From positions 1 to 54,731 of the forward strand of contig JAKQKQ010000168.1 in the NCBI GenBank assembly GCA_029560585.1: a stretch of 54,731 nucleotides of DNA. The letters are read 5' to 3'. Positions within the stretch are counted from its first letter, which is position 1. The number at the start of each line of letters is the position of its first letter. This DNA comes from Verrucomicrobiota bacterium. GTDB lineage: Bacteria; Verrucomicrobiota; Verrucomicrobiia; JADLBR01. The notes under the pieces were generated by a model. That model had not been told where the DNA came from. It saw only the letters and a program-made list of their open reading frames with translations, and did not search any database. A program made the position numbers and the translations under genes. Positions 7,116 to 54,152 of this stretch are shown piece after piece.

Positions 7116-7621
7116 GGGCGTGGCAGGGGGTTGGGGATCTCGATGCGGACGGGGCTGATCCAGGCGTCGCGGACCGAGCACTCGAAGGGCTGCATGCGGG
7201 CGTGGAGGGGGCGGCCGGCTTTGGCGGCGATGGCGAAATCGATCTCCGAGCAGAACCAGACCTCCCTGCCCTCCCGCTCGCGCTGGAGTTCTGCGGCAGT
7301 GCGGTCGCGGCGGGCGAGGAAGGCTCCGATGCCGGCATAGTCGTAGCCCTTGCCGTCCTGGGCGGCGGCGAATCCCGCTGCGAGGGCCTCGCTTTTGGAC
7401 GTTGGCGGCTCGATGAAGGTCAGCGCCCGCGCGTGGGCGTCCGCAGGCATCGGATCGCGCCAGACCACCCGATTGATCTCGCCCAGGGCCTCGAGGATCT
7501 TCCACCGCCCGTTGGGCAGCAGGAACGCCGTCTTGACGTGCGCGAAGGGGCAGCGCTGCCACCAGCGCAGCGCGGCGGCACCGGGACCATCGCCCCGCTC
7601 GAAAAGGGAAACGATCATCAC
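7112..7621 (-). CDS. Permuted NlpC/P60-like (YiiX-type) cysteine hydrolase candidate
   Basis: A 169-residue protein with an early FAHVKTAFLLPNGRWKILEA segment (His before a strand pair), then KGYDYAGIGAFL, then VWFCSE near residue 125. In circularly permuted papain-like hydrolases the catalytic His precedes the Cys, and WFCSE is the usual nucleophile context, so a peptidase or amidase acting on peptidoglycan or a lipid is likely. Start and stop overlap both neighbours by four bases (ATGA), giving a tight three-gene lysis unit with the holin-like gene upstream and the transpeptidase-like gene downstream. Confidence 0.6.
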   Translation of the reverse strand: MMIVSLFERGDGPGAAALRWWQRCPFAHVKTAFLLPNGRWKILEALGEINRVVWRDPMPADAHARALTFIEPPTSKSEALAAGFAAAQDGKGYDYAGIGAFLARRDRTAAELQREREGREVWFCSEIDFAIAAKAGRPLHARMQPFECSVRDAWISPVRIEIPNPLPRP

Positions 7622-7842
7622 GACTCCCGCGCCGCCTTCTCGACCAAGCCCCAGCCCCAGCCCAGAAGCAGCAGGGCAGCCGCCACCCAGGTCTCCTCCT
7701 TCGTGGGATCAAGCAGGCCGTGGGCCGCCAGCCACCCCGCCTCCGCCGTCAGGGCGTGCCGGACCGAGGAGCCGAGGATGGCCTTAACGCGGGGGGATGT
7801 CAGGAATTTGGTTGCGATCTTCGAGGCGAGAGTCCATGTCAT
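7618..7842 (-). CDS. Small holin-like membrane protein
   Basis: A 74-residue protein with a hydrophobic helix near its C-terminus (WVAAALLLLGWGWGLVE) and a basic N-terminal amphipathic part. Size, membrane segment and its place directly before two wall-hydrolase candidates fit a phage holin or holin-like protein; I cannot assign a holin family. It overlaps the next gene by ATGA. Confidence 0.55.
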   Translation of the reverse strand: MTWTLASKIATKFLTSPRVKAILGSSVRHALTAEAGWLAAHGLLDPTKEETWVAAALLLLGWGWGLVEKAARES

Positions 7843-7964
7843 GAATCAGGAGCGGTGTCAAAGTGCGAACCGACCGCGAGACGTGCTCGCCAAAAGGGGA
7901 CAGCTCATCCACATTTTCCTCAGGCCGATGGAGTAGTGATCACGCTAGTCGGCAATGAATCCAG

Positions 7965-10238
7965 ATGAGGCGCGCAGATGCAATATTGAAGCGAGTGGGT
8001 CCGGTGAAGTTGACCCGCTGGCAGGCTTTCGTGGCAGACCAGATGCCTGAACTGCCGCTCGGCGGGCCCGTGACCCGCCTCGATCCGGTGTCTGGTCCAC
8101 GCGCCATCGAAAACGACGCATTTCCTTTCGAGGCGCTGAGCGCAATCGCCGAAACGGAGAGCTGGCGCAAAGAGATCAACCGTCCGACCACCCACATCCA
8201 TAAATGGTGGGCGCAGCGCCTCGGGACCGTTTTCCGCGCAATGACCATCGGCGCGTTCGCGCCTTCGGGCGCGGACATCCTCGATCTCTTCTACCGTCCG
8301 CTCCGAATCCCGGATGGCACCATCTTCGATCCCTTCATGGGCAGCGGCACGACACTCGCTGAAGCCGTCAAGCTCGGCGCGCGAGCAATTGGCCGCGACA
8401 TCAACCCGGTCGCCTTCTTCCTTGTGAAGTCCGCACTCTCGGTCCATGACCGCAAGGCGATACTGGAGACCTTCAGCGCCATCGAGCGCGACGTGGCCGA
8501 TGAGATCCGCAGCTATTACCGCACCACATTACCGGACGGACAGTCCGCCGATGTTCTCTATTACTTCTGGGTCAAGGTGGTTGATTGCCCATCATGCGCG
8601 GCGCCGGTCGATCTATTCTCCTCGCTGATCTTCGCCCGGCACGCGTATCCGAAGAAGTTCCCGCAGGCGCAAGCCGTGTGTCCCTTTTGTGGAAACATCA
8701 ACGAAGTCCATGTCGAGGCCCGCGGCGCGCAGTGTTCCTCCTGCACCAAATCCTTCAATCCCGGCCATGGACCGGCGAAGGGGCAAAACGCGACGTGTCC
8801 GGCCTGTGCGCACAAATTCCCGATCGCCAGAACGATCCGTGCGACCGGCAAGCCGCCGACCCACCGAATGTACGCCAAGCTAGTCCTGCTGCCTGACGGC
8901 AACAAGGCGTATAGTTCGATCACGCGCGAAGACCGAGAACTCTTCGCGAAAGCGGAACGCACACTGGCCAACTGCAACGACCCATATCCCATTGTGGCCA
9001 TAGAACCCGGCTACAACACCAACCAGGCACTCGGCTACAACTACCGCCACTGGCACGAGATGTTCAATGCACGCCAGCTCCTGTGCCTCTCCATTCTTGC
9101 CGACCGGATCCGTCAGATCGGCGATCCAGTCTTACGCGATCTGTTCGCCTGTCTCTTGTCGGGCACACTCGAGTTCAACAACATGTTTGCCTCCTACAAG
9201 GGTGAGGGGACCGGCGCGGTCCGCCATATGTTTGCACATCATATCCTCAAGCCGGAGCGCATGCCGCTCGAAGCAAATATTTGGGGCACGCCCAAGAGTT
9301 CGGGTTCGTTCTCTACCATGTTCGAAGGCCGCATCCGCCGCGCGCTCGACTACGCCGATTGTCCCTTCGAACTGCGCGTGACCCAGGCCAAGAGCAGCCA
9401 AACCACGCAGAAGGTCTTCGGTCTTTCCGAGAAGATCGGCGCGCCCGTTGCCGAGACTTACGCCGAGTTCGCGCGCGGACGGCGCGTCTACCTCTCCTGC
9501 GGGGATTCGGCATCGACCGACCTGCCGAAGCAGTCCGTCGATGTGGTCCTCACCGATCCGCCATTCTTCGACAACGTGCATTACTCGCAGCTCGCCGACT
9601 TCTTCCATGTCTGGCAGCGGCACATCCTGGGCGGGGAGGGCGTACGCGCGAAGGACACGACGCGCTCGGAACGCGAGGTGCAGAATGCCGATGAAGACGA
9701 CTTCACCGATCGACTCGCCGCCGTTTTGCGTGAAGCACACCGTGTCCTCAAAGACGACGGGTTGCTCGCTTTCACCTATCACCATTCCCGTCCCGAAGGT
9801 TGGCGCTGCGTCTTGCGCGCCCTCATGAATGCCGAATTTGGCATCACGGCTGCGCATCCGATCAAAGCCGAGATGTCGGTGGCGATGCCCAAGCACCAGG
9901 CGAAGGAACCGATCGACCTCGACATTATCCTTGTGTGCCGCAAGCGAACTCAGCTTGTCACGCACCAATGGAACGGCGACTTTGGGGGGACGGTCGCGCC
10001 CCCCGTGATGGACCAAGTGAGCCGTCTGCGCGCCTCAGGCCGAACGCTCAGCCGCAACGATGTGCGCATAATCGTGATGGCGCAACTCCTGCGACAGATT
10101 TCACGCTCAGCGACCGTGGAATCCGCTCTCAATCTACTCGAAGAGGCCAAAGGCGAAACAGACGCGCTGATCGACCGTATCCACGCGACGCACGGCGAGG
10201 CACCGGACCAACGGCGCGGGCAGAATGGGAAGGAATAA
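7965..10238 (+). CDS. DNA methyltransferase with inserted zinc ribbons (R-M modification subunit)
   Basis: A 757-residue SAM-dependent DNA methyltransferase. HIHKWWAQRLG (about 77-87) and the SAM motif DPFMGSGTT (122-130) come first; the catalytic TDPPFFDNVHYS (530-541) is far downstream. Between them lie four CxxC pairs (208-211, 239-242, 257-260, 278-281), forming two probable zinc ribbons, and a presumed target-recognition region. This layout resembles DUF1156-type adenine or cytosine-N4 methylases. The gene is on the opposite strand to the phage core and is followed after three bases by a PD-(D/E)XK nuclease, indicating a restriction-modification pair. The base and site methylated cannot be predicted. 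Confidence 0.85.
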   Translation: MRRADAILKRVGPVKLTRWQAFVADQMPELPLGGPVTRLDPVSGPRAIENDAFPFEALSAIAETESWRKEINRPTTHIHKWWAQRLGTVFRAMTIGAFAPSGADILDLFYRPLRIPDGTIFDPFMGSGTTLAEAVKLGARAIGRDINPVAFFLVKSALSVHDRKAILETFSAIERDVADEIRSYYRTTLPDGQSADVLYYFWVKVVDCPSCAAPVDLFSSLIFARHAYPKKFPQAQAVCPFCGNINEVHVEARGAQCSSCTKSFNPGHGPAKGQNATCPACAHKFPIARTIRATGKPPTHRMYAKLVLLPDGNKAYSSITREDRELFAKAERTLANCNDPYPIVAIEPGYNTNQALGYNYRHWHEMFNARQLLCLSILADRIRQIGDPVLRDLFACLLSGTLEFNNMFASYKGEGTGAVRHMFAHHILKPERMPLEANIWGTPKSSGSFSTMFEGRIRRALDYADCPFELRVTQAKSSQTTQKVFGLSEKIGAPVAETYAEFARGRRVYLSCGDSASTDLPKQSVDVVLTDPPFFDNVHYSQLADFFHVWQRHILGGEGVRAKDTTRSEREVQNADEDDFTDRLAAVLREAHRVLKDDGLLAFTYHHSRPEGWRCVLRALMNAEFGITAAHPIKAEMSVAMPKHQAKEPIDLDIILVCRKRTQLVTHQWNGDFGGTVAPPVMDQVSRLRASGRTLSRNDVRIIVMAQLLRQISRSATVESALNLLEEAKGETDALIDRIHATHGEAPDQRRGQNGKE

Positions 10239-24893: not shown

Positions 24894-25709
24894 TCAACCG
24901 CGCACCATCTCCAGGAGCGCCGCCTCGGCGTCCTCCCGGCCCCCGATGAAATCGATCGCGCCCCGGTCGCGGGCCTCGTCGCCGAGGAACACCTGGCCCC
25001 GCATCGTGCCGGGGGCCAGCTGCCGGTGCGCGGCGACGTGGCCCTCGAATTTCGCGTGGCTCTTCTCCACCGCATCCTGGATCGAGGCGCGCTGGTCGTC
25101 GGTGAGGCCCGTCCACGGCAGCCAGGTGGTCTTGAGGTCCCCCTCCCGGTTGTGGAACGCCTCGACGCGGATCCCGGCGTCGGCCAGCCAGCCCGACATG
25201 TCCGCGAAGAAGGTGAAGGTGCCGATGCTGCCAGTGTAGGCGGTCATGGAGCTTCCGATGGCGCCCGCGCCGGCGGCGAGGAAGTAGGCGGCGCTGGCCA
25301 TCATCTGGTCGGTGTAGGCGAGCACGTGCTTCTCCCCGGCCAACGTCGCGATCTCCTGGGCTGCCTCCAGCGCGCCAAGGGTCGAGCCCCCCGGCGAGTC
25401 GATGTCCAGCAGCACGCCCGCCACGTTCGGGTCCTCGCGCAACGCGCGGGCCGCGACGATGATCTCGTCATAGGCGGTGTCCGGCCACCACGAGGCGTCC
25501 TTCGCCAGCACGCCCACGATCGGCAGCCGCGCGATCCCGCCTGGCCGCATCTCGGCCTTCAGCGATGCGCGGTGGGTCGGTGCCTTCCCCTTGGCCTTGG
25601 AGAGCACCCGCGCCATCTCCTCAACCCTCGGCTGGCCGCTGGCGTGCAGCGCCCACGGGTGGGCCCCGAGCTTCCACGCCGCGCCCGATAGTTCACTTCC
25701 CGGAATCAT
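24894..25709 (-). CDS. S49-family prohead protease (SppA/lambda gpC-like)
   Basis: A 271-residue serine peptidase of the S49 type that matures phage proheads. Residues about 95-165 hold the core: VAGVLLDIDSPGGSTLGALE, then YTDQMMASAAYFLAAGA with probable nucleophile S139, then SMTAYTGSIG. It starts inside the 3' end of the portal gene (17-base overlap), a frequent arrangement in lambda-like head operons. The natural substrates would be the scaffold-like and possibly portal proteins encoded next to it. A longer in-frame read across the portal gene was rejected. Confidence 0.85.
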   Translation of the reverse strand: MIPGSELSGAAWKLGAHPWALHASGQPRVEEMARVLSKAKGKAPTHRASLKAEMRPGGIARLPIVGVLAKDASWWPDTAYDEIIVAARALREDPNVAGVLLDIDSPGGSTLGALEAAQEIATLAGEKHVLAYTDQMMASAAYFLAAGAGAIGSSMTAYTGSIGTFTFFADMSGWLADAGIRVEAFHNREGDLKTTWLPWTGLTDDQRASIQDAVEKSHAKFEGHVAAHRQLAPGTMRGQVFLGDEARDRGAIDFIGGREDAEAALLEMVRG

Positions 25710-27189
25710 CCTCGTCCTCCTCCCCCTTGGCGGACTTGTCATCCCCCGATGGCTCAGCCGCCGCCCCGCCGTTGACCGGCGCGGTGAAGACCGAGGCATC
25801 GACCCCCTCCTCGATCGCGATCTGCTCCTTGAGCTTGGCCTCGCGGGCCCGCTCGCGGAGATGGTCCTCGAGGCCCTTGCCCGCCGGACCCAACCAATCA
25901 GAGAGGTTCTTGGCGCCGATGCGGTAAAGGCGCTCAAAGTTCTGGGCGTCGCGGCCCTCATCCACGGTGATCTCCGCAGGCCGGGTGTGGCCCCACTTAT
26001 ACCACTCCGGGTCGAAGTCCAGCCACCCGGCATCGATGAAGCTGCCCACCGCGAAGGCGTCCAGCCGCAGCGCAAGGGGCGCGAGCAGGTCCTGGCGACA
26101 GCGCACCGCCGCCACCGCCTTGTTGCGCACCAGCCTCACCGTCGCCCCGCCGATCTTGCTCGCGTCCCAGGCGATCTCGATGGGCCAGCGCAGCCCAGCG
26201 AAGCAGCAGCGAAGGATGTACTCGACGAAGCGGTGCCAGGTCTCCGGCGGCCGGGAGGAGATGAAGGATTCGAGTTTCGACCCACTGTTGGACCGGAAGT
26301 AGCGCACCAGCCCGCCGAGCATCGTCTCGTAGTGGACCATCCCGCCGTCGGCGGCCCTGGACGTCACCACCGGCGAACCCTCCTCCTCTGGGTCGGGCGC
26401 GTTGCCCGCCTCGTTGTATTCCAACAGCGAGATCGCGCTGGCGGCCTTGATCGCGAGCTTCTCGAAATCCTGCGTGTCTTTGAGGTCGTGCAGGTCGAGG
26501 ACCGCGTGCGTGATGGCCGGAAGCCCCGTGCCCCCGTCCCACCACTCCGGGTCGAAGACCTGCATCATCCGGTCCCGCCCGATGACCCGGTCCTCGTCCT
26601 TCCGGGTGGCCGGCATCTCATAGGCGACCGGGCGGCCGTAGCCGGTCATGATGACCCCGTTGGTCGAGATCATGCCCCGGTACTTGCCGTCCTTGATCTC
26701 CCCGGACCGGCGGCTGGCGATCCGGTGGCCGGGGATGAACTGCACCAGCGGGTAGCCGCCCTCGGTGCGGAAGGTGTAGGCGAAGCTCCGCCCGTCCCGG
26801 TCCATGCAGAGCGAGGCGAGCGCCAGGCCCTTGTTCCAGCCGAACGGGTAGCCCAGCACGTTGCAGGAGCGGTGCCAGTCGGCGAGCATCGCCCCCGCCC
26901 GCTCGCCCCACTTCCGGTCCGTGCCCAGGAACCGCGGCTGCCAGGCGGTGCCGAAGGCGTAGTCGGCCTTCTCCAGCGCCGCGCCCTTGACGATCCCTAG
27001 GTTGGCGAACAACCGCTGCGAGTCCGACACGATCCTGGCGAAGGTGTACGAATCGATGTGCCGCCAGGTGTCCTTGGTCTCGATGCGCCACGACGAACGA
27101 TCGCGCCACCTGCCCCAGTCCCCCGCGTCCCAAAGCGCGGAGCGGCTGACGCCGTTCCTCCATGCCCTCTGGAAATCGACCGGGTTCAT
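25693..27189 (-). CDS. Portal protein (lambda gpB-like)
   Basis: A 498-residue portal with the lambda-type N-terminus. MNPVDFQRAWRNGVSRSALWDAGD contains the paired Trp/Asp region. Next are WRHIDSYTFARIVSDSQRLFANLGIVKGAALEKADYAFG and, in the middle, PLVQFIPGHRIASRRSGE. A C-terminal Glu/Asp-rich tail is expected to be trimmed. Its ATG overlaps the stop of the gpW-like gene (ATGA), excluding the longer frame. Portal dodecamers form the DNA entry vertex. Confidence 0.85.
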   Translation of the reverse strand: MNPVDFQRAWRNGVSRSALWDAGDWGRWRDRSSWRIETKDTWRHIDSYTFARIVSDSQRLFANLGIVKGAALEKADYAFGTAWQPRFLGTDRKWGERAGAMLADWHRSCNVLGYPFGWNKGLALASLCMDRDGRSFAYTFRTEGGYPLVQFIPGHRIASRRSGEIKDGKYRGMISTNGVIMTGYGRPVAYEMPATRKDEDRVIGRDRMMQVFDPEWWDGGTGLPAITHAVLDLHDLKDTQDFEKLAIKAASAISLLEYNEAGNAPDPEEEGSPVVTSRAADGGMVHYETMLGGLVRYFRSNSGSKLESFISSRPPETWHRFVEYILRCCFAGLRWPIEIAWDASKIGGATVRLVRNKAVAAVRCRQDLLAPLALRLDAFAVGSFIDAGWLDFDPEWYKWGHTRPAEITVDEGRDAQNFERLYRIGAKNLSDWLGPAGKGLEDHLRERAREAKLKEQIAIEEGVDASVFTAPVNGGAAAEPSGDDKSAKGEEDEDDSGK

Positions 27190-27437
27190 GCTTCCTCGAA
27201 GGACACCCGCGTCCGGGTGATGTTCCGGCCGTAGGTCTCGGGGTCGAGCCGCCGAAGCGCGTACCGGCACTCCTCTAGGACCTTCTCGGGGGGCATGGAA
27301 AACTGCTTCTGCGCCGAGGTGCCCCCCTCCCCCCACTGCATGATGGTCTTCTGCTCTAGGACCAGTTGCTTCGCCTTCTCCTGGATCGCCCGCACCTCCG
27401 CGACGGTGAAACCGGTGGTGAAGAGACCCTGCGCCAT
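27186..27437 (-). CDS. gpW-like head-tail joining protein
   Basis: An 83-residue helical protein, MAQGLFTTGFTVAEVRAIQEKAKQL..., ending PETYGRNITRTRVSFEEA. Its size, helical character and location between terminase and portal genes match lambda gpW, which sits between A and B. The stop overlaps the portal start (ATGA). The N-terminal 'GFTVAEVRAIQEKAKQLV' resembles that family's first helix. Confidence 0.7.
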   Translation of the reverse strand: MAQGLFTTGFTVAEVRAIQEKAKQLVLEQKTIMQWGEGGTSAQKQFSMPPEKVLEECRYALRRLDPETYGRNITRTRVSFEEA

Positions 27438-27536
27438 GACACCCGGTGGGGGGTGTCAATCCGTGGCGCCCCCGCATCCGGGCAGAAGGCCTTGACCTGA
27501 CCGCGCCGCGCCCGCCACGATCGATCCGGCCCAACC

Positions 27537-28703: not shown

Positions 28704-30638
28704 CTAATCGTTCCCGACCGCTTCCACCGCCTCCCTCCCCAAGAGCCTCAGCATGTGCCCCGCCGCCACGGCCATCGCCTCGCAATCCCAGTAGTGGTTG
28801 GGGCGCTTGCCGATCTGCACCCATCGCCACTGGCCCGCGTGCTTTTCGCGGCGCTCGCTCTCCATGTGCTCGAAGTATTCCTCGGGGGCGTCGTCGGGGA
28901 TCTCCCATGTCGCGCCCTGTGAGGGGTCCTGGTTGCGGCGGAGCCGGTCGAGGGCGTCCTTCATCGCGAGGTTGGACCAGTAAAACTGGCGGGCGACGCG
29001 GCCCCGGCCCATCGAGACCTTCCGCACCGGCGACCATGGCCGGAAGATCGGATCCACGTGGACCCGCTTGCGGCCCCTGTTCCTCTGCTTGTGCGCCCAG
29101 GTGTTGCGGCCGTCGCCGATGAGCGCGGTCCATCCCCGCTCCGCGCACCAGCGGAACACGTCGTAGCCCCGCTGGTCGCCGGCGTCGATGAACACGAGCG
29201 ACGGCAGGATGCCGAAGCGCCCCACGATCAGGTCGCAGTCCTCAAGGGTGTGGGCCCGCTCCATCCAGATCGCCCGCGAGCTGCCGTCCATGGCGAATGA
29301 GCGGACGACCACGTAGAAGCAGACCTGCTGCACGTCGATGAAGGCGGCGCGGCAGGGCCCGAGGGGCCTGGCCTTCTCCCATTCTTTGCGCTGCTCCTCG
29401 GTGGCGTCCTCGGGCAAAGGTTCCTGCGGCATCTCCGGCCAGCCCTTGCGGCCGATGGCGGCCTCCTTCTCCCAGGCGGGCGGCCCGCCCTCCGCGTTCA
29501 TCCGGTAGCCTGTCTTGCGAATCTCGACGCGGTAGTCCTCGCCCCGGTCCTCGTAGGTCTGGGCGAGGCGCTTCATGCGAAACTCCCTGATCAGCGACGT
29601 GTCCCCGCGCCGGTAGGCCGCCACCGCCTTGTGCCACTCCTCGACCAGATCGCGCCAGTCCATGTGCGCCATCGCGTTCCAGCGAAAGCCGGGCCGGTCC
29701 TCCGGGGCGTCGGGGTTGCGGGGCTCGAACCGCCATTCGCGCAGCAGGTCCTTCTGGAGTTCCTTCGAATACGGCATCCGCTCCCCGCAGTGCTGGCACT
29801 CGTAGGCCACCGTTTTCCGCAATTCGCGCCAGCGCCACGAGCCGTCCGGGTTGCGTGTGCGCTCGTTGTCGTCCCACACGATCCCGCCGGGGCGGTTGGG
29901 GTCCTTGTCCCATCGGAAGTCGAACCATCCCCGGCAGCAGGGGCACCGCACCTCCAGCTCGCGCTGATCGCTGTCGCACCACGCGAGGTCGGCCTCGTCG
30001 CCCTCCTCCGCGCCGGTGGAGAGGTTGAGGATGATCCGCGAGGAGCGGAACGACGTCGTGCGCTTGCGCAGCTGCTCGAGGTGCCCCTGCGGGTAGAGCC
30101 AGACCTCGTCGTTGACCTGGATGGCGACCGACAGGCTCTGGAGGTTGGAGGGCGTCGCGGCCCCCTGGACGATCAGGAACATGTGGTTGAAGAGGATCGT
30201 GGTGGTCCGCTTCTTGTGGCGGTTGACCGGGAAGTAGCAGCGCAGCGGCTCGCAGCGCTCCAGCATCGGCATGAGGCGGAACTCCGCGAAGTCTTTGGCC
30301 TTGTCGTCGGTCTGCGCGTTCCATTGCGCCGGTCCGGGGCGATGCTTGATCATCCAGGCCAGCGCCACCTGGGCGATGAGGGATTTCACGCTCTGGACGC
30401 TGGCCTGGATGGTGACCTCGATCCCGGTGCGGTTGCGCAGCACCTCCAGCGGTTCCTTGGCGTAGGGGTGGAGGGATATGTCGAAGGCTCCGGGGTGGGA
30501 CATCTCCTCGCCGACGGTGATGTGCTCCGCGGCCCACTCCCAGATGGGGCGGTCGTCCACGACCGGCACGCAGTCGAAGATGGCGTGGAGCAGCGGGTCG
30601 GGCCCGCGCCTCCTACCTGTAGCCGTGTGCGATCTCAT
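28704..30638 (-). CDS. Terminase large subunit (GpA family)
   Basis: A 644-residue packaging ATPase/nuclease of the lambda GpA family. An altered Walker A region QASVQSVKSL (about 78-87) aligns with the family's QkSaQvGKT. Two CxxC pairs (RCPCCRGW and ECQHCGER) form the zinc site seen in GpA proteins. The nuclease half contains AAFIDVQQVCFYVVV and VFIDAGDQRGYD, with Asp residues suited to metal binding. The start is inside the 3' end of the small-subunit gene. GpA-type terminases usually package from cos sites, but no cos site could be located by eye. Confidence 0.88.
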   Translation of the reverse strand: MRSHTATGRRRGPDPLLHAIFDCVPVVDDRPIWEWAAEHITVGEEMSHPGAFDISLHPYAKEPLEVLRNRTGIEVTIQASVQSVKSLIAQVALAWMIKHRPGPAQWNAQTDDKAKDFAEFRLMPMLERCEPLRCYFPVNRHKKRTTTILFNHMFLIVQGAATPSNLQSLSVAIQVNDEVWLYPQGHLEQLRKRTTSFRSSRIILNLSTGAEEGDEADLAWCDSDQRELEVRCPCCRGWFDFRWDKDPNRPGGIVWDDNERTRNPDGSWRWRELRKTVAYECQHCGERMPYSKELQKDLLREWRFEPRNPDAPEDRPGFRWNAMAHMDWRDLVEEWHKAVAAYRRGDTSLIREFRMKRLAQTYEDRGEDYRVEIRKTGYRMNAEGGPPAWEKEAAIGRKGWPEMPQEPLPEDATEEQRKEWEKARPLGPCRAAFIDVQQVCFYVVVRSFAMDGSSRAIWMERAHTLEDCDLIVGRFGILPSLVFIDAGDQRGYDVFRWCAERGWTALIGDGRNTWAHKQRNRGRKRVHVDPIFRPWSPVRKVSMGRGRVARQFYWSNLAMKDALDRLRRNQDPSQGATWEIPDDAPEEYFEHMESERREKHAGQWRWVQIGKRPNHYWDCEAMAVAAGHMLRLLGREAVEAVGND

Positions 30639-31224
30639 GGAGTTCTTGGAAGGCGAGGCGGATCGCCATCTCGTTGCGGGCGCGCTCCTCTTCGGTCTTG
30701 GCGCCATCGACCAGGTGCGAGCGCAGGATGCGGGCGGCCTCGGCCCAAGCGAAGGACACCTTCTCCACCACCTCGGCGCGGGTGACGTACTCGCGGCGGC
30801 GGATGGCCAGCTCGAACTCGGCGCGCTCGTTTTGGATCTCGTAGCGCCGCACGATCTCCGCCTCGCGGCGGGGCAACTGCTCCTTGGCGCTGTTGCTGGT
30901 GCCCAGGCCCCGCTCCTCGATGAACCGCGCCCAGGCCGCCGCGTCCTGGGAGTTGTCCGGCCTCGCCCTCGGCGCGCCGGGCATCTTCGCCCACAGCCGG
31001 AACGCCTCCCGGGAATACGGCAGGACGTCGGCGAGCCCGCGGAATCCCTTCACCCATCTCGGGGCCTCGGCGGTTTGGTTCCTGCGCCGTTCCTCGAGGA
31101 CCGCCCTCTCGCGCGCGGTGAGGGTCTTGCCCGCCTGGAGCTTCCTGACGATGTTGGCCAGGTCCGCGGAGAGCAGTTTCTCGACCTGCTCCGCGTCGAG
31201 GTCATCGATGGTGCGGCCGCTCAC
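30613..31224 (-). CDS. Terminase small subunit (probable)
   Basis: A 203-residue protein directly before the large terminase gene and overlapping it. It contains VKGFRGLADVLPYSREAFRLWAKMP, a winged-helix-like DNA-binding segment such as in Nu1-type small subunits, and long charged helices toward the C-terminus. The GTG start chosen overlaps the upstream stop as GTGA; an ATG 45 bases further upstream lies inside the methyltransferase gene. Confidence 0.72.
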   Translation of the reverse strand: MSGRTIDDLDAEQVEKLLSADLANIVRKLQAGKTLTARERAVLEERRRNQTAEAPRWVKGFRGLADVLPYSREAFRLWAKMPGAPRARPDNSQDAAAWARFIEERGLGTSNSAKEQLPRREAEIVRRYEIQNERAEFELAIRRREYVTRAEVVEKVSFAWAEAARILRSHLVDGAKTEEERARNEMAIRLAFQELHEIAHGYR

Positions 31225-37358: not shown

Positions 37359-38717
37359 TCAGGGCGAAGAGACCACGATGGCGCACCGAAACCCAACATT
37401 GCTCGAACGAGCGTCGGGGTGAACCGGTACGCGAGACGACGACGCGAGAAAGCCGGCATTAGGCAGGGCCCAATATCCACCCCGCAAAACGCGCCGCACA
37501 TTGCCCTCTTGGATGTCGGCCATTTCGTCGGCCTTCGGCTCATAGCTACCGCCGCCGGCCTTGCTCTTCTTGAGATGGGTGTCGGCGTACCAGTCTTGGA
37601 CCCATTCGCGCACGTTGCCACCCATGTCACAGAGCCCTGCTTTGTTCGCCTTGTAGCTCCCCACCGGGGCGGTGCGTGGATGATTGTCCTTGTACCCCTT
37701 CAGAGCGGTCCCTTTAGGATCGTCGGGTCTGCCCCGCACTACTTCCTCCCCACCAATGTTCTCCACGTTCCGGGGCGGCGGCCAATCGTCACCCCAGGGA
37801 TACTTCTCCTTGCCCACCGCCGTGTCCCACTCCTCGTCGGTCGGAAGGCGGTATTCCCGACCCTCCTTGATCGAGAGCCACGCGCAAAAGGCATTCGCGT
37901 CGTCCCAGTTCACCATCACGACCGGATCCTCCGGCGTCTGCTCGAACGTCGCCTTCTGACTCCAAGTGTACCCGCTGTCCTTGACGAACATCCCAAAGTC
38001 CTTCACTCGCGTCTCCCACACGCAGAGGAGCACCCCGGTGTCCTTGATCGGAACGAACGGCATGCCCAGGGAGTTGATGAACGGGCGATCCTTTGTCGCG
38101 TCCGCGGGCCTCGATGTCGTGTCCCCCAACAGCCGCGGGGGCACACCGCCCTGGCGACCGCCGACCCCTTGACCAACCACGGTGGCAACGACCTCAAACG
38201 TCCCCCCCTTCAATGACTGAATTTGCTTCTCCAATTCCAAGGCCGCATCAATCCGCGTTGCGCGGGTTAACTCCACCTTCATGCGGTCCAACGCCTTGAT
38301 CGCCTTTATCGTCTCTTGCTCCAGCGCCCGCTTGGCTTGCCGCTCCCCAGCCCGAAGTGCCGCATCCAGATCTCTCCGAACTGTCGCCACCTTCGACAGG
38401 GAGAACCTCCCTCCCGCTTCGAACCCTGGCGTGCTCCTGCCGCCCTCCCACGCCTCACGCTCGGCGCGCACCGCCTTCACCGCTTCCAGATCCCCGCTTC
38501 GCGCCACGTCGATCTCCAAGGCTCTCAGGTCGGCGACGTATTTCGCCCTTTGGCGCTCGGCGGACTCACGACTCTTGGCCAAAATGTCCGAAACGGGCTC
38601 CAGAATCCGGGCCACATAGGACCGCTCGGATTCACTCAGGGTGCCCCCGCCCTGAGCCAGCAGAATCCCCGGGACCAGCAAACTCACGCTCGCCACCAAT
38701 CGCCCGATCGATCTCAT
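37359..38717 (-). CDS. Exported SUMF1/FGE-domain protein without catalytic cysteines
   Basis: A 452-residue protein. The chosen ATG yields signal peptide MRSIGRLVASVSLLVPGILLAQGG. Residues about 25-190 form a helical, charged region with Arg/Glu-rich coiled coil. The C-terminal SUMF1-type domain has SLGMPFVPIKDTG, VVMVNWDDANAFCAWL, YRLPTDEEWDTAVG, YPWGDDWPPP, MGGNVREWVQDW and VLRGGYW. The Cys pair that forms formylglycine in FGE enzymes is absent after LRGGYW, so this is a structural or binding SUMF1 domain. It is of the type abundant in PVC bacteria, not in phages. Minus strand, between radC and a second radC 3' fragment. Confidence 0.85.
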   Translation of the reverse strand: MRSIGRLVASVSLLVPGILLAQGGGTLSESERSYVARILEPVSDILAKSRESAERQRAKYVADLRALEIDVARSGDLEAVKAVRAEREAWEGGRSTPGFEAGGRFSLSKVATVRRDLDAALRAGERQAKRALEQETIKAIKALDRMKVELTRATRIDAALELEKQIQSLKGGTFEVVATVVGQGVGGRQGGVPPRLLGDTTSRPADATKDRPFINSLGMPFVPIKDTGVLLCVWETRVKDFGMFVKDSGYTWSQKATFEQTPEDPVVMVNWDDANAFCAWLSIKEGREYRLPTDEEWDTAVGKEKYPWGDDWPPPRNVENIGGEEVVRGRPDDPKGTALKGYKDNHPRTAPVGSYKANKAGLCDMGGNVREWVQDWYADTHLKKSKAGGGSYEPKADEMADIQEGNVRRVLRGGYWALPNAGFLASSSRVPVHPDARSSNVGFRCAIVVSSP

Positions 38718-38874
38718 ATTCGGAATCCCCCGTGAGTTGCGCTGACTCCCTCCGACGACACCCAACATTCCGGGAGACATGAACTGTCCAGTCCCGCGAT
38801 CACCCTCACAAAATGCCAACGCCGGCCCACAAGAGCAAGGCTGATCCGGGTCGGCAACGCAGCGCATCAAACCT

Positions 38875-39011
38875 GACATCGCATCACCCGATCCCTCCGC
38901 GAATCCTCCAAGGTCCTCGACATCCCCCTACTCGATCACGTCATCATCGGGTCCCCATCCTCTGCGTACCCCGAGGGCTGGTTCAGCTTCAAGGCGGCGG
39001 GGTATCTGTGA
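38875..39011 (+). pseudogene. radC 3'-end fragment
   Basis: Corresponds to the last ~138 bases of the intact radC in this prophage, including the segment ending at the same stop codon (PEGWFSFKAAGYL becomes PEGWFSFKAAGYL-like with a silent end). By eye there are about 14 differences over the last 111 bases and one single-base deletion further upstream, so it is a diverged allele rather than a fresh copy. No 5' part is present. Confidence 0.82.
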
Positions 39012-39201
39012 ACCACTGCACCGTTGACGGTGCTTGACTCGGTGCGCACGGAGAAGAAACTTTCCTCATGTATCGGGGAATTTCCGCCGCTTTTCGCTCG
39101 CCAATATACTCGGCTGGACCCGGCATATGCGGCCGATCGGTCGGCACAATCAAAGTTGGGCTGTAAACGTCCACGGCATCCGGAATTTCCAGCGTGAACA
39201 T
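38989..39201 (-). CDS. Possible small phage protein with GPAEY motif
   Basis: A 70-residue frame beginning MFTLEIPDAVDVYSPTLIVPTDRPHMPGPAEYIGERKAAEIPRYM. The MPGPAEYIGERKAAEIPRYM part recalls the GPAEYM box of the phage gene on the other side of radC. The last third reads over the radC fragment on the opposite strand, so the natural C-terminus has probably been lost. It may be a decaying gene. Confidence 0.35.
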   Translation of the reverse strand: MFTLEIPDAVDVYSPTLIVPTDRPHMPGPAEYIGERKAAEIPRYMRKVSSPCAPSQAPSTVQWFTDTPPP

Positions 39202-40093
39202 CTGTCGTCACTCACTTACAATCATCTTGCTGCTCGCGGCGCTGGCAGCGCTTCGTGCAGATCCAAGCCGACCGGATGCCTCAGGTCCCCTGGGTCAGAC
39301 GGGCCAGTGGGTTTTGAAGCCCGCTTTCTCGGATGAGTTCGCCGCGGCCACGCCCGATCCGAGGAAATGGACCACGAGGCCGGCAAGCTGGGGTCCATGG
39401 ACTTGGGATGAGAACAACGCCACGCAGGAAAACGGCAATCTTGTGCTGCGCATGACCTATGATCCGCACACGCGCGGCAATCAGCAGCAGAGATTCTTCT
39501 ATAAGTCAGGAATACTTCGCTCAAAGCTCAAGAGAACCTATGGCTATTACGAAGCGCGGATCAAGGGATGCAGCCTATTCCCCGGAGCCTGCCCGGCCTT
39601 CTGGCTGTTTAGCGACGGCAAGGCGACGGAGGGCGAGGTGCGTTACTGCGAAATCGACATTGTTGAGTTGCAGATGCACGAATTGAATCGGTCAACCCAA
39701 GTGCGCGACCCGGTCAATCACATAGACATGAATCTCCATCTGCGGCTCGCCGACAAAGATGGAAAGATCAGATGGGTGCGGCCATTGATGGACCCGGAAT
39801 TGTGCGCCAATTCGTGGATGGCCCCATGGGATCCCCGTGATGCCTTTCACGTCTATGGCTGCGATGTCACTCCAGAAACCATCGTGTGGTATGTCGACGG
39901 CAAAGAAGTCGCGCGGAAGGCGAACAAGTACTGGCATCTCGCCATGAACCTCGCGCTTTCACTGGGCTTGCGCTATCCGCACCTCGGATGGGTCGGCCAG
40001 GAAATGAAACCCATCCCGCAAGCCGCGACCGAAAAGGGATTCCCAACCTCGATGGAAGTGGACTACATTCGGGTGTGGGAGCGCAAGAAATAG
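39194..40093 (+). CDS. Secreted glycoside hydrolase family 16 (beta-bulge type)
   Basis: A 299-residue GH16 endo-beta-glycanase. Signal peptide MNICRHSLTIILLLAALAALRAD. The jelly-roll core includes SDEFAA, KSGILRSKLKRTYGYYEARIKG, and GACPAFWLF. The catalytic strand is CEIDIVELQ (nucleophile E153, acid/base E158) in the ExDxxE form. That form marks laminarinases, agarases and carrageenases rather than lichenases (ExDxE). WYVDGKEV and VDYIRVWE are typical late strands. The start is GTG; no ATG is available nearby. It overlaps a small reverse frame by eight bases. Substrate probably a marine or plant beta-glucan or galactan; exact one unknown. A surprising cargo for a phage. Confidence 0.88.
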   Translation: MNICRHSLTIILLLAALAALRADPSRPDASGPLGQTGQWVLKPAFSDEFAAATPDPRKWTTRPASWGPWTWDENNATQENGNLVLRMTYDPHTRGNQQQRFFYKSGILRSKLKRTYGYYEARIKGCSLFPGACPAFWLFSDGKATEGEVRYCEIDIVELQMHELNRSTQVRDPVNHIDMNLHLRLADKDGKIRWVRPLMDPELCANSWMAPWDPRDAFHVYGCDVTPETIVWYVDGKEVARKANKYWHLAMNLALSLGLRYPHLGWVGQEMKPIPQAATEKGFPTSMEVDYIRVWERKK

Positions 40094-40490: not shown

Positions 40491-41522
40491 TCAACGTCGT
40501 CGTCGGCACCAGACGCAGGCCGCGAGCCCCACTAACGCCATGGCCACAAACGTCCCGGGCTCGGGGATCATGGCGACGCGAAACCCGAGGCGGCCGAAGT
40601 ACTCGCCCGTGGGCGGGCTGCGGTCCCGGTACGACGACCGGAGGCCGTATTCGTCGTAAAGCCAGTCGCCGCCCCGCAGGCCCCGATCTGCGTCGATGAG
40701 CGTCTCGTTCAACTCCCACACGTTGCCTCCCTGGTCGAAGGTCCCGTAGTAGCTGGCGGCCAGAGTATAGGCGCCCACGTCGGTCAAATAGTTCGTGCCG
40801 CTGTAGTCGCTCGTGCTCCCGGTCTTCGCGAAGCCATCGTTGAGGAAATCATCGGGCGAGCCGTCGTCACGGTAGAAGTTCGCGCTGTTGGCGTCGGTCC
40901 CGTTGGGCGGGCGGCTGTTGGGGATCGCATCGCTCTGGGTCGGGTAGAGCCAGTAGTTTGTCGTCCCGCTGGCGGTCGGGTCGTAGTACGCGGCCTTGTA
41001 CCACTCGTTCTCGGTGGGGATCACCCAAGTGGCATTGGCCGCGCGGGCGCTGATGTTGGTCGTTGTCGAACCATTCGTGAACAGCGTATAGCTTCCGTAT
41101 TCGGTGGTTCCCGCACCGCCCTGCCCGTTCTCAAGCCAGTTCACGAATCGCGCCGCATCATAGAACGAAATGAAGACCACCGGCACGTTCTCGTAGCCGG
41201 ATTTCACCGAGTACGTGTAGCTGCCGCTCGAACCCGAGCGCGTTATTCCCCCGCGAGCATCGGAATCCATGCTGCTGTTGTAGAGCCCATAGGTATCTGT
41301 TGCGGCCACCGAATTTAGGAACTCCGCGTATTGGCTGTTCTGCACCTCGTGCTTTCCAATGGCGTAGGTGTACGCAACGCTTCCGATGCCGGGCACCACG
41401 CTGGTGTTGAGCGGGTCGGGCGCATTGCCAGGGTCGCCCACCGTTACCATCTCCATTGTCAGGCCCAAGCTCAGGCTTGGAATCGAGAGGTAGAGCACAG
41501 AAACAAAGACGAGCTCACGCAT
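40491..41522 (-). CDS. SUMF1-domain PEP-CTERM protein
   Basis: A 343-residue exported protein. Signal peptide MRELVFVSVLYLSIPSLSLG. A SUMF1-type domain follows (VTVGDPGNAPDP, AYTYAIGKHEVQNSQYAEFL, PVVFISFYDAARFVNWLE, WVIPTENEWYKAAYY, GNVWELNETLI, GLRGGDWLYDE, RLGFRVA), and a C-terminal PEP-CTERM tail (IPEPGTFVAMALVGLAACVW, then CRRRR). The FGE cysteines are lacking. The ATG has AGGAAA upstream and a well-formed promoter. Domains and tail are those of PVC host proteins; possible role in surface or matrix structure. The longest in-frame read starts inside the next gene and was rejected. Confidence 0.88.
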   Translation of the reverse strand: MRELVFVSVLYLSIPSLSLGLTMEMVTVGDPGNAPDPLNTSVVPGIGSVAYTYAIGKHEVQNSQYAEFLNSVAATDTYGLYNSSMDSDARGGITRSGSSGSYTYSVKSGYENVPVVFISFYDAARFVNWLENGQGGAGTTEYGSYTLFTNGSTTTNISARAANATWVIPTENEWYKAAYYDPTASGTTNYWLYPTQSDAIPNSRPPNGTDANSANFYRDDGSPDDFLNDGFAKTGSTSDYSGTNYLTDVGAYTLAASYYGTFDQGGNVWELNETLIDADRGLRGGDWLYDEYGLRSSYRDRSPPTGEYFGRLGFRVAMIPEPGTFVAMALVGLAACVWCRRRR

Positions 41523-41562
41523 AAGTTTTCCTTTTCGAAACTGGTCTATCGATTGCGCGAGT

Positions 41563-41591
41563 TTGATAAGAACCGCCTGCTTCTTTGTCAA
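41563..41591 (-). promoter_or_regulatory. Sigma70-type promoter for the PEP-CTERM moron
   Basis: Read on the minus strand: TTGACA, a 17-base spacer, then TATCAA, about 40 bases before the ATG of the SUMF1/PEP-CTERM gene. The -35 begins just after the stop of the upstream phage gene. A private promoter for a cargo gene is the hallmark of a phage moron. Confidence 0.7.
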
Positions 41592-41602
41592 GTGTCTCAG
41601 CG

Positions 41603-42184
41603 TTACAACATTGCGTACAAATCCACCAGCGGCTTTATCTGTTCCTTCAACGCCTGCCGGTCCTCCCACCGGTCCGGGGGCTCTGAGGAGATCCGGGCGT
41701 TGAGGTAGACGGTGACCTTGGCGAGGTGGGGGTACGGGTTGAAGACGCGGGCGGTGTCGCCGTCGCGCTGCTTGGCCTCGGGGGGAGGGATGACCCCGGC
41801 GAGCTGGTACGCCTGGCGGATGGACTTGGCCTGTGCGGTGACCTGCTCGAGGGGGATCTGGGCGAGGCGGATGTAGCGATAGGCGGTCATGTAGTCGAAG
41901 CCGAGCTGCTTCTCGACGAACTCCTGCCAGGGGGGCAAAACTTTCACATGTGAAAGATTTGCTCGATCTGCCCCGTTCGTGCCCGATTTGTCCCCTCCCC
42001 TGACCTCGGGGTACTTGGCGCGGATGGCCAGCAGCACGGCACCGCACTCGTGGGCGAGGCGCACGGATTTGCCCACGCTGGCGACGGCGCTCTTGGCGGC
42101 CTCGTCTGCCTCACGGTAGAGGCGCTTGGCCTCGGCGATCTGCCTGGCGTCGATGGTGGCGGGCGTGTCATTTTTGGTGCTCAT
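41603..42184 (-). CDS. DUF3102-like phage protein
   Basis: A 193-residue protein with an N-terminal helical part ([32 protein letters not shown]) and the recognisable [31 protein letters not shown] segment, a helix-turn-helix-like block seen in DUF3102 proteins of phages and plasmids. Probably DNA-binding and regulatory. It overlaps the next upstream gene by 17 bases. Confidence 0.65.
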
Positions 42185-49697: not shown

Positions 49698-51782
49698 TCA
49701 TCGGTGGCGTCCCAGGTGCTTTGCCGCCTCATCTTTGATGCCAGGTTTCCTCTGCTCGAAGGAGGCTTTCCCCTCGGGGCTGGCCGCTAGGTACGCGCGA
49801 ATCGTGGTGTCGCGATCTGCGGGATCATCGGCCCAGTCACGTTCGACGGCAGAGATCTCTTCAGTCACGGTCATCCCCTCCTCGTTGGCGTGGCCACCGC
49901 CTTTCGTGAATCGCATTGCTGGGGATGATGCGTTACAGGGGGGCAGGTTGTTCTTGCGGAGTTTCTCGTCAATGCCCCGGACGCGCCGACTCAGGGTCGC
50001 CGCGCTCTTCACCACGCCCGATTTCCGAAGCGATTCGAGGGCATTCTTCTGACTGCCGCCGGAATTGCGGACCGCACGCCAAATCGTCTGCTCTTCTGGG
50101 GTCAGGATGTCGGCGATTCGGTTATAAATCTCAAGAGCAGCTGCTTCCGGTGCAACTCGTGCCTCGGCTAGGTCGGCTTGCATGACGGGAACGCCCCGAA
50201 CGTGCTCGTGCACCGTCGCGACGGTCTTCTCGATTCTCGCGACGGCACCCGAAATGGGATTGGTCATCTGCTGCAACTCTAGGATGCCGGCTTGGACCGT
50301 TGCAAGTGTGGGCCCTTTATCCGCCGCGTCACCAACAAGGTGCGCCCGCGTTGCGATGAGTTGGAGAAGGCTCCCATCGGCCAAAGGGAATCGCAGGTCG
50401 TCAAACCGGCGCCTCACCTCATCCAGGCCCTGCAAAACCTGTTCGCCGTGGCGGCGACAAAGGGCCCAAACGGCATCGACGGCGGCATCTTCCTCCATCC
50501 CGACGAACGGTGTCACATCGCTCAGTTCGGCAAGTCGCTCCATGAAGAACCCGTCGTCAGTCGCGGTGGCAAAATGGACAGCCTGGCGCACGTAGTCGAG
50601 CGCAGTCGTCCGCGCTTCGTCGGCCTCGATTCGGTCCCTGAAGATGTCCGCCGAGTAGATGCCCGCGTTGTCGATCTCATGAAGTCCGGCGGCATAGGCC
50701 GCAATGCGCCTGTCAACGCACTGAAAGCAGCATCCGCAGTGTGTTGCGCTGCCCACCAGGCGGTTGAAGGTCTTGCTGCACGACACCGAACTATTGATGA
50801 GGTCCCTCCCGCCCACTTTGTCCAGAAGTGCAAAGACGTCGGCCTTAGTCTTCGTCCAGAAGGGATTGAGCACTCTCACTGGCCCGCCGCGGACCTCGGC
50901 GAAGAAGTCCGCCATGAGCGCGTGCGTCTGCGGGTGCGTGGTGCGGCTCGCCCGCGCATTCATCAGGTCCTGCCGGCGGAGGAAGTTGAGCGAGGTCACC
51001 CCGTTCTCAAAGGCGAAGAAAGAATCAAGACCGATTCGGTGGGCGACGGCAAAGGCGATGGAACCGAAGAGGAACGCGCGGGTCCGCTGTGTCTCCTCCA
51101 CACCGCGCACGTGGGCGAGACCGCAATCGAATGAGTAATGGTGGACCCGTCCCGGATGGTTCGCACACAAGACCCTAACAAGCGCCGCCTGGGTCTTCTT
51201 GGTGCTCGGCTGCCCCGACCGATGGCTGATGAGGTAGATGTCCTCGCTGGTGGTCGCCAGGCGCTCCAACACCCCGGCCAGAGAATCCAAGCCGCCCGAG
51301 AACAGGGCAACGCTTGCGGGACCTCGGGGCGCGATGGCGAACTCCTCTCGGTCGAATAGCGACGTTGGCGGCGTCGTGTGCCCTTCCAGAAAATCAAAAG
51401 AGTATTCGCAGTCGCCCGTCATGAACCGGATGGCCGCGCTGAGTTTCTCCTTCACGCGCGGCTGATTCCAGAATTCAGCATCCCGGACCCTCATGGAGAA
51501 CAGCATGGCGCGTGGCCAGGCGTGATACTCCACGGCGTCCTTCGCACCGCGGAACGTCGCCCGGTCCGCGGCGAAGACGTAGGCGGCAAGTTCCAGCAGA
51601 TCCAGAATCCGATCCGGAAGGTGGTAGAGCTGATCGACGAATTTCGGCAACCGCAGTGTGACCAGTCGTTCAGGGTCGTCATTCAGATAGTTGAGCGCTG
51701 TGACGTGCGCGCCAGCTGGGACGGACTTCGGCCGCGGCGCGCCGTTGCAGAGAAATACTCGCAGGGGGCAAGCGTCCTTCAT
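49698..51782 (-). CDS. QueC-like (PP-loop) protein with long C-terminal extension, candidate defence protein
   Basis: A 694-residue protein. Residues 1-150 are the N-terminal domain typical of QueC-like defence proteins (LELAAYVFAADRATFRGAKD, MLFSMRVRDAEFW). The PP-loop SVALFSGGLDSLAG (SGGLDS at 162-167) activates substrates as adenylates. The zinc site is C335 plus CGCCFQC at 349-355, as in QueC. The partner motif VRVLNPFWTKTKADVF is also present. Residues 360-694 are an added helical region with a possible winged helix at about 560-615. QueC makes preQ0, but no queuosine genes are near. Its start overlaps the partner stop (ATGA). Antiviral or exclusion function is inferred. Confidence 0.8.
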   Translation of the reverse strand: MKDACPLRVFLCNGAPRPKSVPAGAHVTALNYLNDDPERLVTLRLPKFVDQLYHLPDRILDLLELAAYVFAADRATFRGAKDAVEYHAWPRAMLFSMRVRDAEFWNQPRVKEKLSAAIRFMTGDCEYSFDFLEGHTTPPTSLFDREEFAIAPRGPASVALFSGGLDSLAGVLERLATTSEDIYLISHRSGQPSTKKTQAALVRVLCANHPGRVHHYSFDCGLAHVRGVEETQRTRAFLFGSIAFAVAHRIGLDSFFAFENGVTSLNFLRRQDLMNARASRTTHPQTHALMADFFAEVRGGPVRVLNPFWTKTKADVFALLDKVGGRDLINSSVSCSKTFNRLVGSATHCGCCFQCVDRRIAAYAAGLHEIDNAGIYSADIFRDRIEADEARTTALDYVRQAVHFATATDDGFFMERLAELSDVTPFVGMEEDAAVDAVWALCRRHGEQVLQGLDEVRRRFDDLRFPLADGSLLQLIATRAHLVGDAADKGPTLATVQAGILELQQMTNPISGAVARIEKTVATVHEHVRGVPVMQADLAEARVAPEAAALEIYNRIADILTPEEQTIWRAVRNSGGSQKNALESLRKSGVVKSAATLSRRVRGIDEKLRKNNLPPCNASSPAMRFTKGGGHANEEGMTVTEEISAVERDWADDPADRDTTIRAYLAASPEGKASFEQRKPGIKDEAAKHLGRHR

Positions 51783-52564
51783 GCGGCCTGCTCCTCTCGC
51801 CGCAGCTCATCCCGCATCTTCCCGAAAGCAACGGAAAGAAACCCCTCGATCTCCCGCTCGCTGGGAACCCTATCGCGGGCATGGCCGTTGAACCAGCCCG
51901 CCGCAAACGACTGCGTTATCTTCGCCGTCTCAAAAGCGTGCCTCGATACGCCGTCGACGTGGGACCTTATGCCTTCCCGGAACCGCTCGCGGTGCTCCAG
52001 TGTGGGGCAGGTTGCCGATGCCGCTCTTTCGAGGAAGTAGTTTAGATACCGCTCCGTGACCTTGCCGAAAAAGAGACGCGCCAAGTCGCAAAAGCCAGAC
52101 CCTTCGCCCAGCGGACGCCACGAGTCAAGAAACTCGCTCGACGGTTTGAAGAGCGGCATTTGTTGACTGGCGTTCTGCTTGTACCAGTTTCCAATCGCGT
52201 CCGCCGCCGCACCGATGGTGATCTGCCCATACTCAGTCGCCGCCTGGTGCGGGGGGATCTGTTCCTTCAGCGATCTGACGATGGACAGAAGCGTCGCTCG
52301 TTCCGCAATGGGGATCCCGGACGCCCTCAGCGCCTGGTGTGGGTCTTCCGCCCGGCACGCTCGGGCAAACTTCACAAGGAAGGCAAAGGCTGTCTTGACC
52401 GCGTCGTCTTGGAAGAGGGTTTCGTACTGGCGGCGGACGTTCTCTAACGTCTGTGCGGCAAGGGTGCCGACCGGAACTTCATCGGAGAAAACCCCGCCCA
52501 TCTGGCCAACCAGGCGCGTCCACCTCGTTGATTTCGGCAGGATTCCGACTCTTTCGTGTCCCAT
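51779..52564 (-). CDS. Unrecognised partner of the QueC-like protein
   Basis: A 261-residue, mostly helical soluble protein (MGHERVGILPKSTRWTRLVGQMG...). FLVKFARACRAEDPHQALRA and FFGKVTERYLNYFLERAAS stand out. I recognise no family and no catalytic motif, and it does not look like QatA, QatB or QatD. Its stop overlaps the start of the QueC-like gene by four bases, so the two are translationally coupled and probably form a complex. The 271 bases upstream, up to the integrase stop, hold no gene. Confidence 0.7.
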   Translation of the reverse strand: MGHERVGILPKSTRWTRLVGQMGGVFSDEVPVGTLAAQTLENVRRQYETLFQDDAVKTAFAFLVKFARACRAEDPHQALRASGIPIAERATLLSIVRSLKEQIPPHQAATEYGQITIGAAADAIGNWYKQNASQQMPLFKPSSEFLDSWRPLGEGSGFCDLARLFFGKVTERYLNYFLERAASATCPTLEHRERFREGIRSHVDGVSRHAFETAKITQSFAAGWFNGHARDRVPSEREIEGFLSVAFGKMRDELRREEQAA

Positions 52565-52835: not shown

Positions 52836-54152
52836 TCAACCTGCCGTTGCCAGAGTCAGCACGTTGGAAGCGGATCCTTCGGGCCTCACCGCAAACCACG
52901 CCTTTCCCTCATCGGTCGTCCTCAGCTCTAGGTATGAGTGGCGAATGATCGTCTCGGAGTTCCCGGCCTCCAGGGCGACCTGGGAGAGGTTCTGGGTGAC
53001 GGCGGTGCGGTAACTGATGAACGAGTCCCGGAGCACGTCGTGGGGCCATTCGAGGCCGATGGCCTTGGCCAGCGCCGTCACCCGCGCGGAGGTCTTCGTG
53101 TTGCAGATCCGCCCCCCGGCGGCCCGGTGTGGCGCGAGCCACTCGGCCAAGTTGGGCTGGATGGGGATGAGGCGCCGGGCGGCGGTCTTGGCCTTGTGCT
53201 TGGCGACCTCGATCACGCCCCGGTCCCAATGGATGTCGGCCCATTCGAGGCGCTGCATCTCCAACGGACGGATGCCCGCGAAACCCCCGATGGCGATGAA
53301 CGGCACCAGATCGGGTTGCGGGCGGATCGCGGGCCTTCCGGGTCCCTCCTTAACGCCGTGGGCGGCGGCCAGCAGGAGGCGGGACATCTCCCCCGGCGTG
53401 AACACCCGGATGCGCTTGCCGGGGTCCTTCATCCGCTTCACGAACGTCGCCTCGACCTCCCGATCCCGCGGTAGGTAGCCGCGCGACCGCGCGAAGTTGA
53501 ACAGGGTCACGATATCCGTCCGATAGTTGTTCCACGTCTTCGGCTTCGCACGAAGGCGCGCGAGGGCGTCCTCGATCATGCGCCCGGTCACCGCCTGGAC
53601 CGGCGCCCGGAATCGGCCCGCGAACCACCCGAGGCGGTATCGCAGCGTCGAGACATAGCGCTCCGAGAGACCGGTCTCGATCCGGTCCTTGATGAACTCC
53701 TCGACCAGATCGGGGATCCGCTTCGATGGGATCTCCTTCGAGTGCTTCTCCCGCCACCAGCGCGCCACCTGGAGCAGCGATGCCGGCTGCACCAGCTCCC
53801 ACGCCTCGGCATACTCCTTCGCGGCGACGTCGATCGGGATGCCGGTCCGTTTCACCGCGGCCACCGCCACGCCGAACCGCTCCCGGTCCCCCACCCGCAT
53901 CTCGGTCATCTCGGCGCGCCCATCGGTGAGATCCCGCGCCATGGCCTCCGCCGCCTCCTTGGCCGCATCGAGGGAGGCGCGCGCCAGCCGACGCCGCGCC
54001 CCGCCCTGCCGCCACGCGGCCGTGAAATGCTTCTTTCCGGTCCGGTAGATGAGTATCCGGACCGAATCGACCCAGATCTCGATGGGCCATTTCCCTGTGA
54101 CAGCTTGTGACAACCGCCGCTTTTTTCGGGCCCCGCGCTCGCTGATCTTCAC
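52836..54152 (-). CDS. int: Tyrosine integrase
   Basis: A 438-residue site-specific recombinase. SAM-like core-binding helices around 135-235 (LVEEFIKDRIETGLSERYVS). Catalytic domain: GIRPLEMQRLEW (R295), HKAKTAARRL (Lys near 320), HDVLRDSF (H371, R375) and AGNSETIIRHSYLEL with nucleophile Y407. The third His is replaced by Asn in AGNS, as in some PVC-group integrases. The start is GTG close to attR and its first codons contain integrase-arm-like words. It inserts the phage into tRNA-Asp and would excise it with a directionality factor. Confidence 0.92.
   Translation of the reverse strand: MKISERGARKKRRLSQAVTGKWPIEIWVDSVRILIYRTGKKHFTAAWRQGGARRRLARASLDAAKEAAEAMARDLTDGRAEMTEMRVGDRERFGVAVAAVKRTGIPIDVAAKEYAEAWELVQPASLLQVARWWREKHSKEIPSKRIPDLVEEFIKDRIETGLSERYVSTLRYRLGWFAGRFRAPVQAVTGRMIEDALARLRAKPKTWNNYRTDIVTLFNFARSRGYLPRDREVEATFVKRMKDPGKRIRVFTPGEMSRLLLAAAHGVKEGPGRPAIRPQPDLVPFIAIGGFAGIRPLEMQRLEWADIHWDRGVIEVAKHKAKTAARRLIPIQPNLAEWLAPHRAAGGRICNTKTSARVTALAKAIGLEWPHDVLRDSFISYRTAVTQNLSQVALEAGNSETIIRHSYLELRTTDEGKAWFAVRPEGSASNVLTLATAG
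54095..54113 (-). promoter_or_regulatory. Inverted pair of TTGTGACAA/CTGTGACAG words
   Basis: CTGTGACAG and TTGTGACAA with a 10-base period, the reverse complement of the TTGTCACAA sites at attL, inside the start of the integrase gene. Likely part of the integrase arm-binding array, and possibly autoregulatory. Confidence 0.55.

Follow-up and report, generated by a model that had tools for sequence, protein, structure and literature searches.

What does a gene pair encoding a QueC-family enzyme and a protein of no recognised family do beside a phage integrase? The question arises from a contig of a Verrucomicrobiota bacterium (JAKQKQ010000168.1, assembly GCA_029560585.1), of which the whole stretch of 54,731 nucleotides was analysed and is called the window below. 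An earlier interpretation, made from the letters alone and referred to here as the sequence-only reading, proposed an undescribed two-gene antiphage module that joins a defence-type QueC enzyme to a new kind of partner. Only in 2025–2026 was it recognised that QueC-type enzymes chemically tag proteins at their first glycine. In type IV CBASS, the CD-NTase starts with MGGS and Cap9 attaches 7-deazaguanine to its Gly2 (PMC13279940). QatB of the Qat system starts with MGTS, and its G2D substitution abolishes defence; QatB and QatC alone protect against lambda vir, and mutants of the PP-loop and of the Thr pocket lose this defence, while the reaction of QatC is not yet known (PMC13279940).

Both open reading frames were found where the sequence-only reading had placed them, the partner gene being followed by the enzyme gene on the reverse strand (Table 1), and the ATGA coupling was likewise confirmed: the start ATG of the enzyme frame overlaps the stop of the partner frame at 51779–51782. 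Phage replication and recombination genes lie on the same contig as the pair, besides portal, terminase and integrase genes, and the element is therefore a prophage. Between the phage terminase and phage primase genes there are also two proteins with FGE-sulfatase domains (37359–38879 and 40491–42047, both on the minus strand), one of them with a PEP-CTERM motif, together with a GH16-like protein (39194–40093, plus strand). These genes may be cargo related to the surface or the tail, possibly diversity-generating targets, or else host DNA lying within the element.

Table 1. Features of the gene pair and of the surrounding prophage in the window.
Feature	Coordinates	Strand	Basis or remark
Partner, 261 aa, all-helical, QatB-like predicted fold	51779..52564	-	ORF; AlphaFold2; Foldseek
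Disordered N-terminal tail MGHERVGILPKSTRW, putative glycine acceptor G2 after Met removal	52520..52564	-	MGH in 47/47
QatC-like QueC-family enzyme, 694 aa	49698..51782	-	PADLOC, NCBIfam, PDB sequence and fold
PP-loop SGGLDS, residues 162-167, ATP pyrophosphate site	51282..51299	-	S162, D166, S167 in 37/37
RTTHP, residues 280-284, QatC-type substrate loop	50931..50945	-	invariant in 37/37; aligned with QatC STRTTHP
Zinc site C335, H348-C349-G-x-C352-x-Q-C355	50718..50780	-	invariant in 37/37
Variable C-terminal module, residues 480-694	49701..50345	-	predicted helix-turn-helix at ~562-610; rest of low confidence in the model
Tyrosine integrase adjoining the pair	52836..54152	-	PHROG phrog_1 integrase, 9e-20
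Phage terminase large subunit gpA	28704..30707	-	PF05876, 7e-32
Phage portal protein	25693..27534	-	PF05136, 1.4e-15

Within the QueC family the enzyme is QatC-like: its ATP site and zinc site are intact, and its substrate loop is of the QatC type. The QatC model of PADLOC matches residues 55–393 (E = 1.1e-41), and solved QatC chains in the PDB match by sequence at about 1e-19 with the enzyme alone and at 1e-54 with a 37-sequence profile. For the predicted structure, the best solved fold is QatC 9y01_B (E 4e-17, TM 0.73 over the target), followed by QueC. The defence-type assignment made earlier is thus borne out by sequence and by fold, as are the SGGLDS PP-loop and the zinc cysteines that had been pointed out. 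The PF06508 score of 27.5 against a cutoff of 22 places the enzyme in the QueC superfamily, with whose canonical members it shares the PP-loop ATPase fold and the zinc site (folds 2pg3 and 3bl5), and the NCBIfam QatC score of 164.6 bits lies under the equivalog cutoff of 280. The phage family phrog_1550 ('QueC-like queuosine biosynthesis') matches residues 147–368 (4.6e-13) and so covers the enzyme core only, not the partner or the C-terminal module. In the 37 enzymes compared, QRxR, ENG, TK and DRR motifs are invariant as well. Position 279 is S in the window and T in 31 and S in 6 of these sequences, and T281 aligns with QatC T280. The pocket accordingly reads (S/T)xT as in QatC (T278, T280), without the Tyr and Asp with which QueC and Cap9 read CDG. 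Like QatC, the enzyme combines an N-terminal domain, PP-loop, zinc site, (S/T)RTTHP loop and C-terminal helices; unlike QatC, the enzymes of the pair carry an extra C-terminal stretch of 115–270 residues, and in a tree they form a group separate from canonical QatC with weak support.

The partner had been described as a protein without a recognised family, and searches against Pfam, PADLOC, NCBIfam, PHROGs and PDB sequences indeed gave no match, the QatB models of PADLOC and NCBIfam returning nothing at E up to 1. A match to invertase/GH100 (E 0.066) was rejected as chance. The AlphaFold2 model, built with 39 sequences, is all-helical (pLDDT 89.9, pTM 0.90), with residues 1–14 free of secondary structure. 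When this model was compared with 350,542 PDB chains by Foldseek, QatB 9y02_A ranked first with a probability of 0.99, and every other listed chain stood at 0.23 or below; viral models gave no match. The TM-scores of the QatB alignment are low (0.38/0.43), its rmsd is 7.2 Å and its E value 0.038, and homology to QatB is therefore likely rather than proven. Profile comparison of the two proteins (1.6% with 9 sequences; 18% with 39, p 0.0013) is suggestive only. Kinship is considered likely because position, enzyme type and N-terminal glycine are shared, the partner gene lying directly upstream of the enzyme gene and overlapping it as in QatB–QatC. With a predicted fold that matches QatB first, a glycine start and this operon position, the partner is probably not of a new kind. 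The sequence-only reading had itself held that a match to a known Qat subunit would count against it, and there is such a match, with modest scores, at the level of the predicted fold but not of sequence. The partner is not recognised by sequence and differs from canonical QatB in that its tail has about 14 residues instead of 30–90, and its MGH start shares only the glycine with MGTS.

The (M)GH start was found in all 47 partners examined and is kept even in partners that are only 19% identical. Its codons vary, GGC, GGT, GGG and GGA all being used for glycine and both histidine codons for the next residue, and selection therefore acts on the protein. Further along the tail, G7 (42/47), L9 (44/47), P10 (40/47) and W15 (36/47) are conserved; in this count L025 is shifted by one codon, and its start is MGH too. 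The conservation of the MGH start could also have another cause. In L085 (2472–2772), a partner copy starts with MGHSRLGNLPRTRK, again MGH, and is cut off by a stop codon where the conserved W15 would stand, so that it is likely a decaying copy.

Genome and viral-contig searches found relatives within the window's own phylum, in MAGs and genomes of Verrucomicrobia, and also in Omnitrophota, one Selenomonadales MAG, a plasmid of Leptospira and numerous IMG/VR contigs; among plasmid and phage records there was only one partner homologue, on a Leptospira noguchii plasmid. In the viral-contig scan the window enzyme alone found no relatives, whereas alignment queries did. The partner precedes the enzyme gene in every one of the 80 loci whose sequence reaches 800 nt or more upstream of that gene; these loci form 46 clusters below 90% identity once IMG/VR contigs entered twice are removed by clustering. 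The coupling is therefore not chance, and the pair is a conserved unit, as had been supposed. No QatA (KAP ATPase) was detected near any pair, 35 of the 46 clusters having at least 2.5 kb upstream, nor any QatD (TatD nuclease), 41 of the 46 having at least 1.2 kb downstream; the positive control was found in each case. The pair differs in this from qatABCD. On a Natrinema plasmid (L013, 2879–5212), a QatC-like gene of haloarchaea is preceded by two small genes, of which the first starts MGSASASS, with no QatA or QatD match; this may be a further relative of QatBC whose partner is split.

Several pairs have defence genes as neighbours, namely HmaC (L003), PDC-S06 (L005), type IIG restriction-modification (L006), HKD and Snf2 (L024) and MTase_II/REase_II (L048), and phage genes for integrase, tail, anti-repressor and exonuclease lie near others. 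Both kinds of neighbourhood are places where defence genes sit. The sequence-only reading had placed the pair between integrase and recombination genes, where temperate phages carry exclusion genes; across the family, the pair sits in prophages and defence islands.

The sequence-only reading had also seen an extension of about 330 residues with a possible winged helix. The enzyme does continue for about 335 residues past the zinc site, of which about 120 are common to the whole family and the last 215 or so form a variable module that includes the predicted helix-turn-helix. The module of the window gave no match in a Pfam search. Beyond about residue 480 the 37 enzymes diverge: 15 have in common a winged-helix-like module accompanied by a helical stretch, and 13 a second winged-helix-like module, a designation that for these two large groups reflects sequence appearance and a weak Trans_reg_C match, with no significant family match. 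An OmpR-type winged helix (PF00486) is found in 3/37 and a DpnII/MboI nuclease (PF18742) in 2/37, and the window, L003, L033, L034 and L090 have distinct modules of their own. The nuclease domain is fused in L004, L005 (PF18742), L006 and, by alignment, L008, with L005 and L008 additional to the 2/37. In this last locus (6001–8645 of Leptospira noguchii plasmid p1), the pair, annotated as hypothetical proteins, adjoins an IS element and has the DpnII/MboI-like module.

Some related genes appear damaged. In L003 (8760–8880) and L005 (8720–8840), two related qatC-like genes have lost their frame at almost one and the same position, between ENG and VTSLN, through different lesions, which reflect either assembly error or real inactivation. 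A programmed frameshift at this place was rejected, because the lesions are not alike and the frame is uninterrupted in the window and in most members. In L007 (9480–9620), a qatC-like gene in a viral contig ends at about residue 264 beside a sequence like the 3' end of a tRNA or tmRNA (GGTTCGACTCC...CCA), as though an attachment site had been the point of truncation; no gene was found by ARAGORN at exactly this position.

An enzyme of this family might instead make or attach 7-deazaguanine or another small molecule in some other pathway, such as DNA or tRNA modification or cofactor synthesis, with the partner as a scaffold and no part in defence. Several pathways do make use of enzymes from the QueC superfamily (PMC13329287), and CDG would be available to the enzyme, since QueD and QueE matches were found in most of the hosts checked. 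The earlier statement that no queuosine genes are nearby is correct as far as the tested neighbours of the pair are concerned, but not for the genome, in which a canonical queC-queE-queD operon lies on another contig, C213. A queuosine pathway elsewhere that uses this protein had been named as a finding that would speak against a defence module; the pathway is present, but with its own QueC. Given this separate canonical QueC beside QueE and QueD, the pair's enzyme, which is three times longer, is therefore not the queuosine enzyme. The (S/T)xT residues at the CDG-reading positions, the lack of a deazaguanine DNA-modification gene among the neighbours examined and the host of locus L024 (G207, 94% complete), in which TGT is present and QueC, QueD and QueE were not detected, also make service in another pathway quite unlikely. 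This one incomplete genome further gives a hint that CDG need not be the attached group.

The C-terminal modules suggest two other roles. The pair would be a toxin-antitoxin-like or abortive unit if the module were the effector and the QueC-like domain and partner only restrained it, and the fused nucleases, the tight translational coupling and the mobile-element context agree with this. Most modules, however, are winged-helix-like without an apparent catalytic site, and the enzyme shows no variation in its catalytic and zinc residues, although a mere inhibitor would not need them, so that such a unit is unlikely. It is very unlikely that the winged helix binds DNA while the QueC-like part and the partner tune prophage expression rather than serve defence. 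The pair does stand beside an integrase in the window and in L023, and winged-helix or OmpR-type domains are present, but other copies sit in defence islands beside restriction and Hma genes, and some members carry a nuclease in place of the winged helix.

The reading preferred here, with a probability of about two in three, is that the pair is a prophage- and island-borne antiphage module of QatBC type that modifies the N-terminal glycine of its partner. It is probably a subtype of the QatB–QatC core that lacks QatA and QatD and in which the C-terminal domains are swapped. The proposal of an undescribed two-gene antiphage module stands insofar as the defence library tested contains no system model for the conserved pair, and no description of this subtype was found in the literature searched, outside which most subscription papers and preprints fell; it does not stand insofar as the pair is probably a QatB–QatC subtype. 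The likeness to Cap9 and its CD-NTase is that a QueC-family enzyme is paired with a protein starting Met-Gly. In contrast to type IV CBASS, the partner has no CD-NTase family match (Pfam, PADLOC) or fold match, the enzyme is long and without the Tyr/Asp CDG pocket, and no CD-NTase occurs among the neighbours scanned.

By analogy with QatBC and Cap9, Gly2 of the partner, after Met removal, would enter the active site of the enzyme, which would activate a small carboxylate with ATP and join it to the amine of this glycine. The C-terminal module, in most members DNA-binding-like and in some a nuclease, would supply within the same polypeptide a sensing or attack function for which separate proteins may serve in other systems. 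The prophage would use the pair to exclude competing phages. A bolder version, possible but rather doubtful, is a self-contained immunity that modifies N-terminal glycines, in which the QatC-like ligase carries its own swappable sensor or effector module and the attached group is not 7-deazaguanine. This last point is put forward because the pocket is without the CDG-reading residues and one host is apparently without CDG synthesis.

A two-gene family carried by prophages, with a QatBC-type core to which nuclease or DNA-binding-like domains are already fused in nature, makes a small test system, and the fused domains hint at the target of the modified complex. The pair would widen QueC-based immunity well beyond qatABCD and, if the proposal of a self-contained immunity is true, swappable winged-helix or DpnII/MboI modules would do the work of separate effector proteins.
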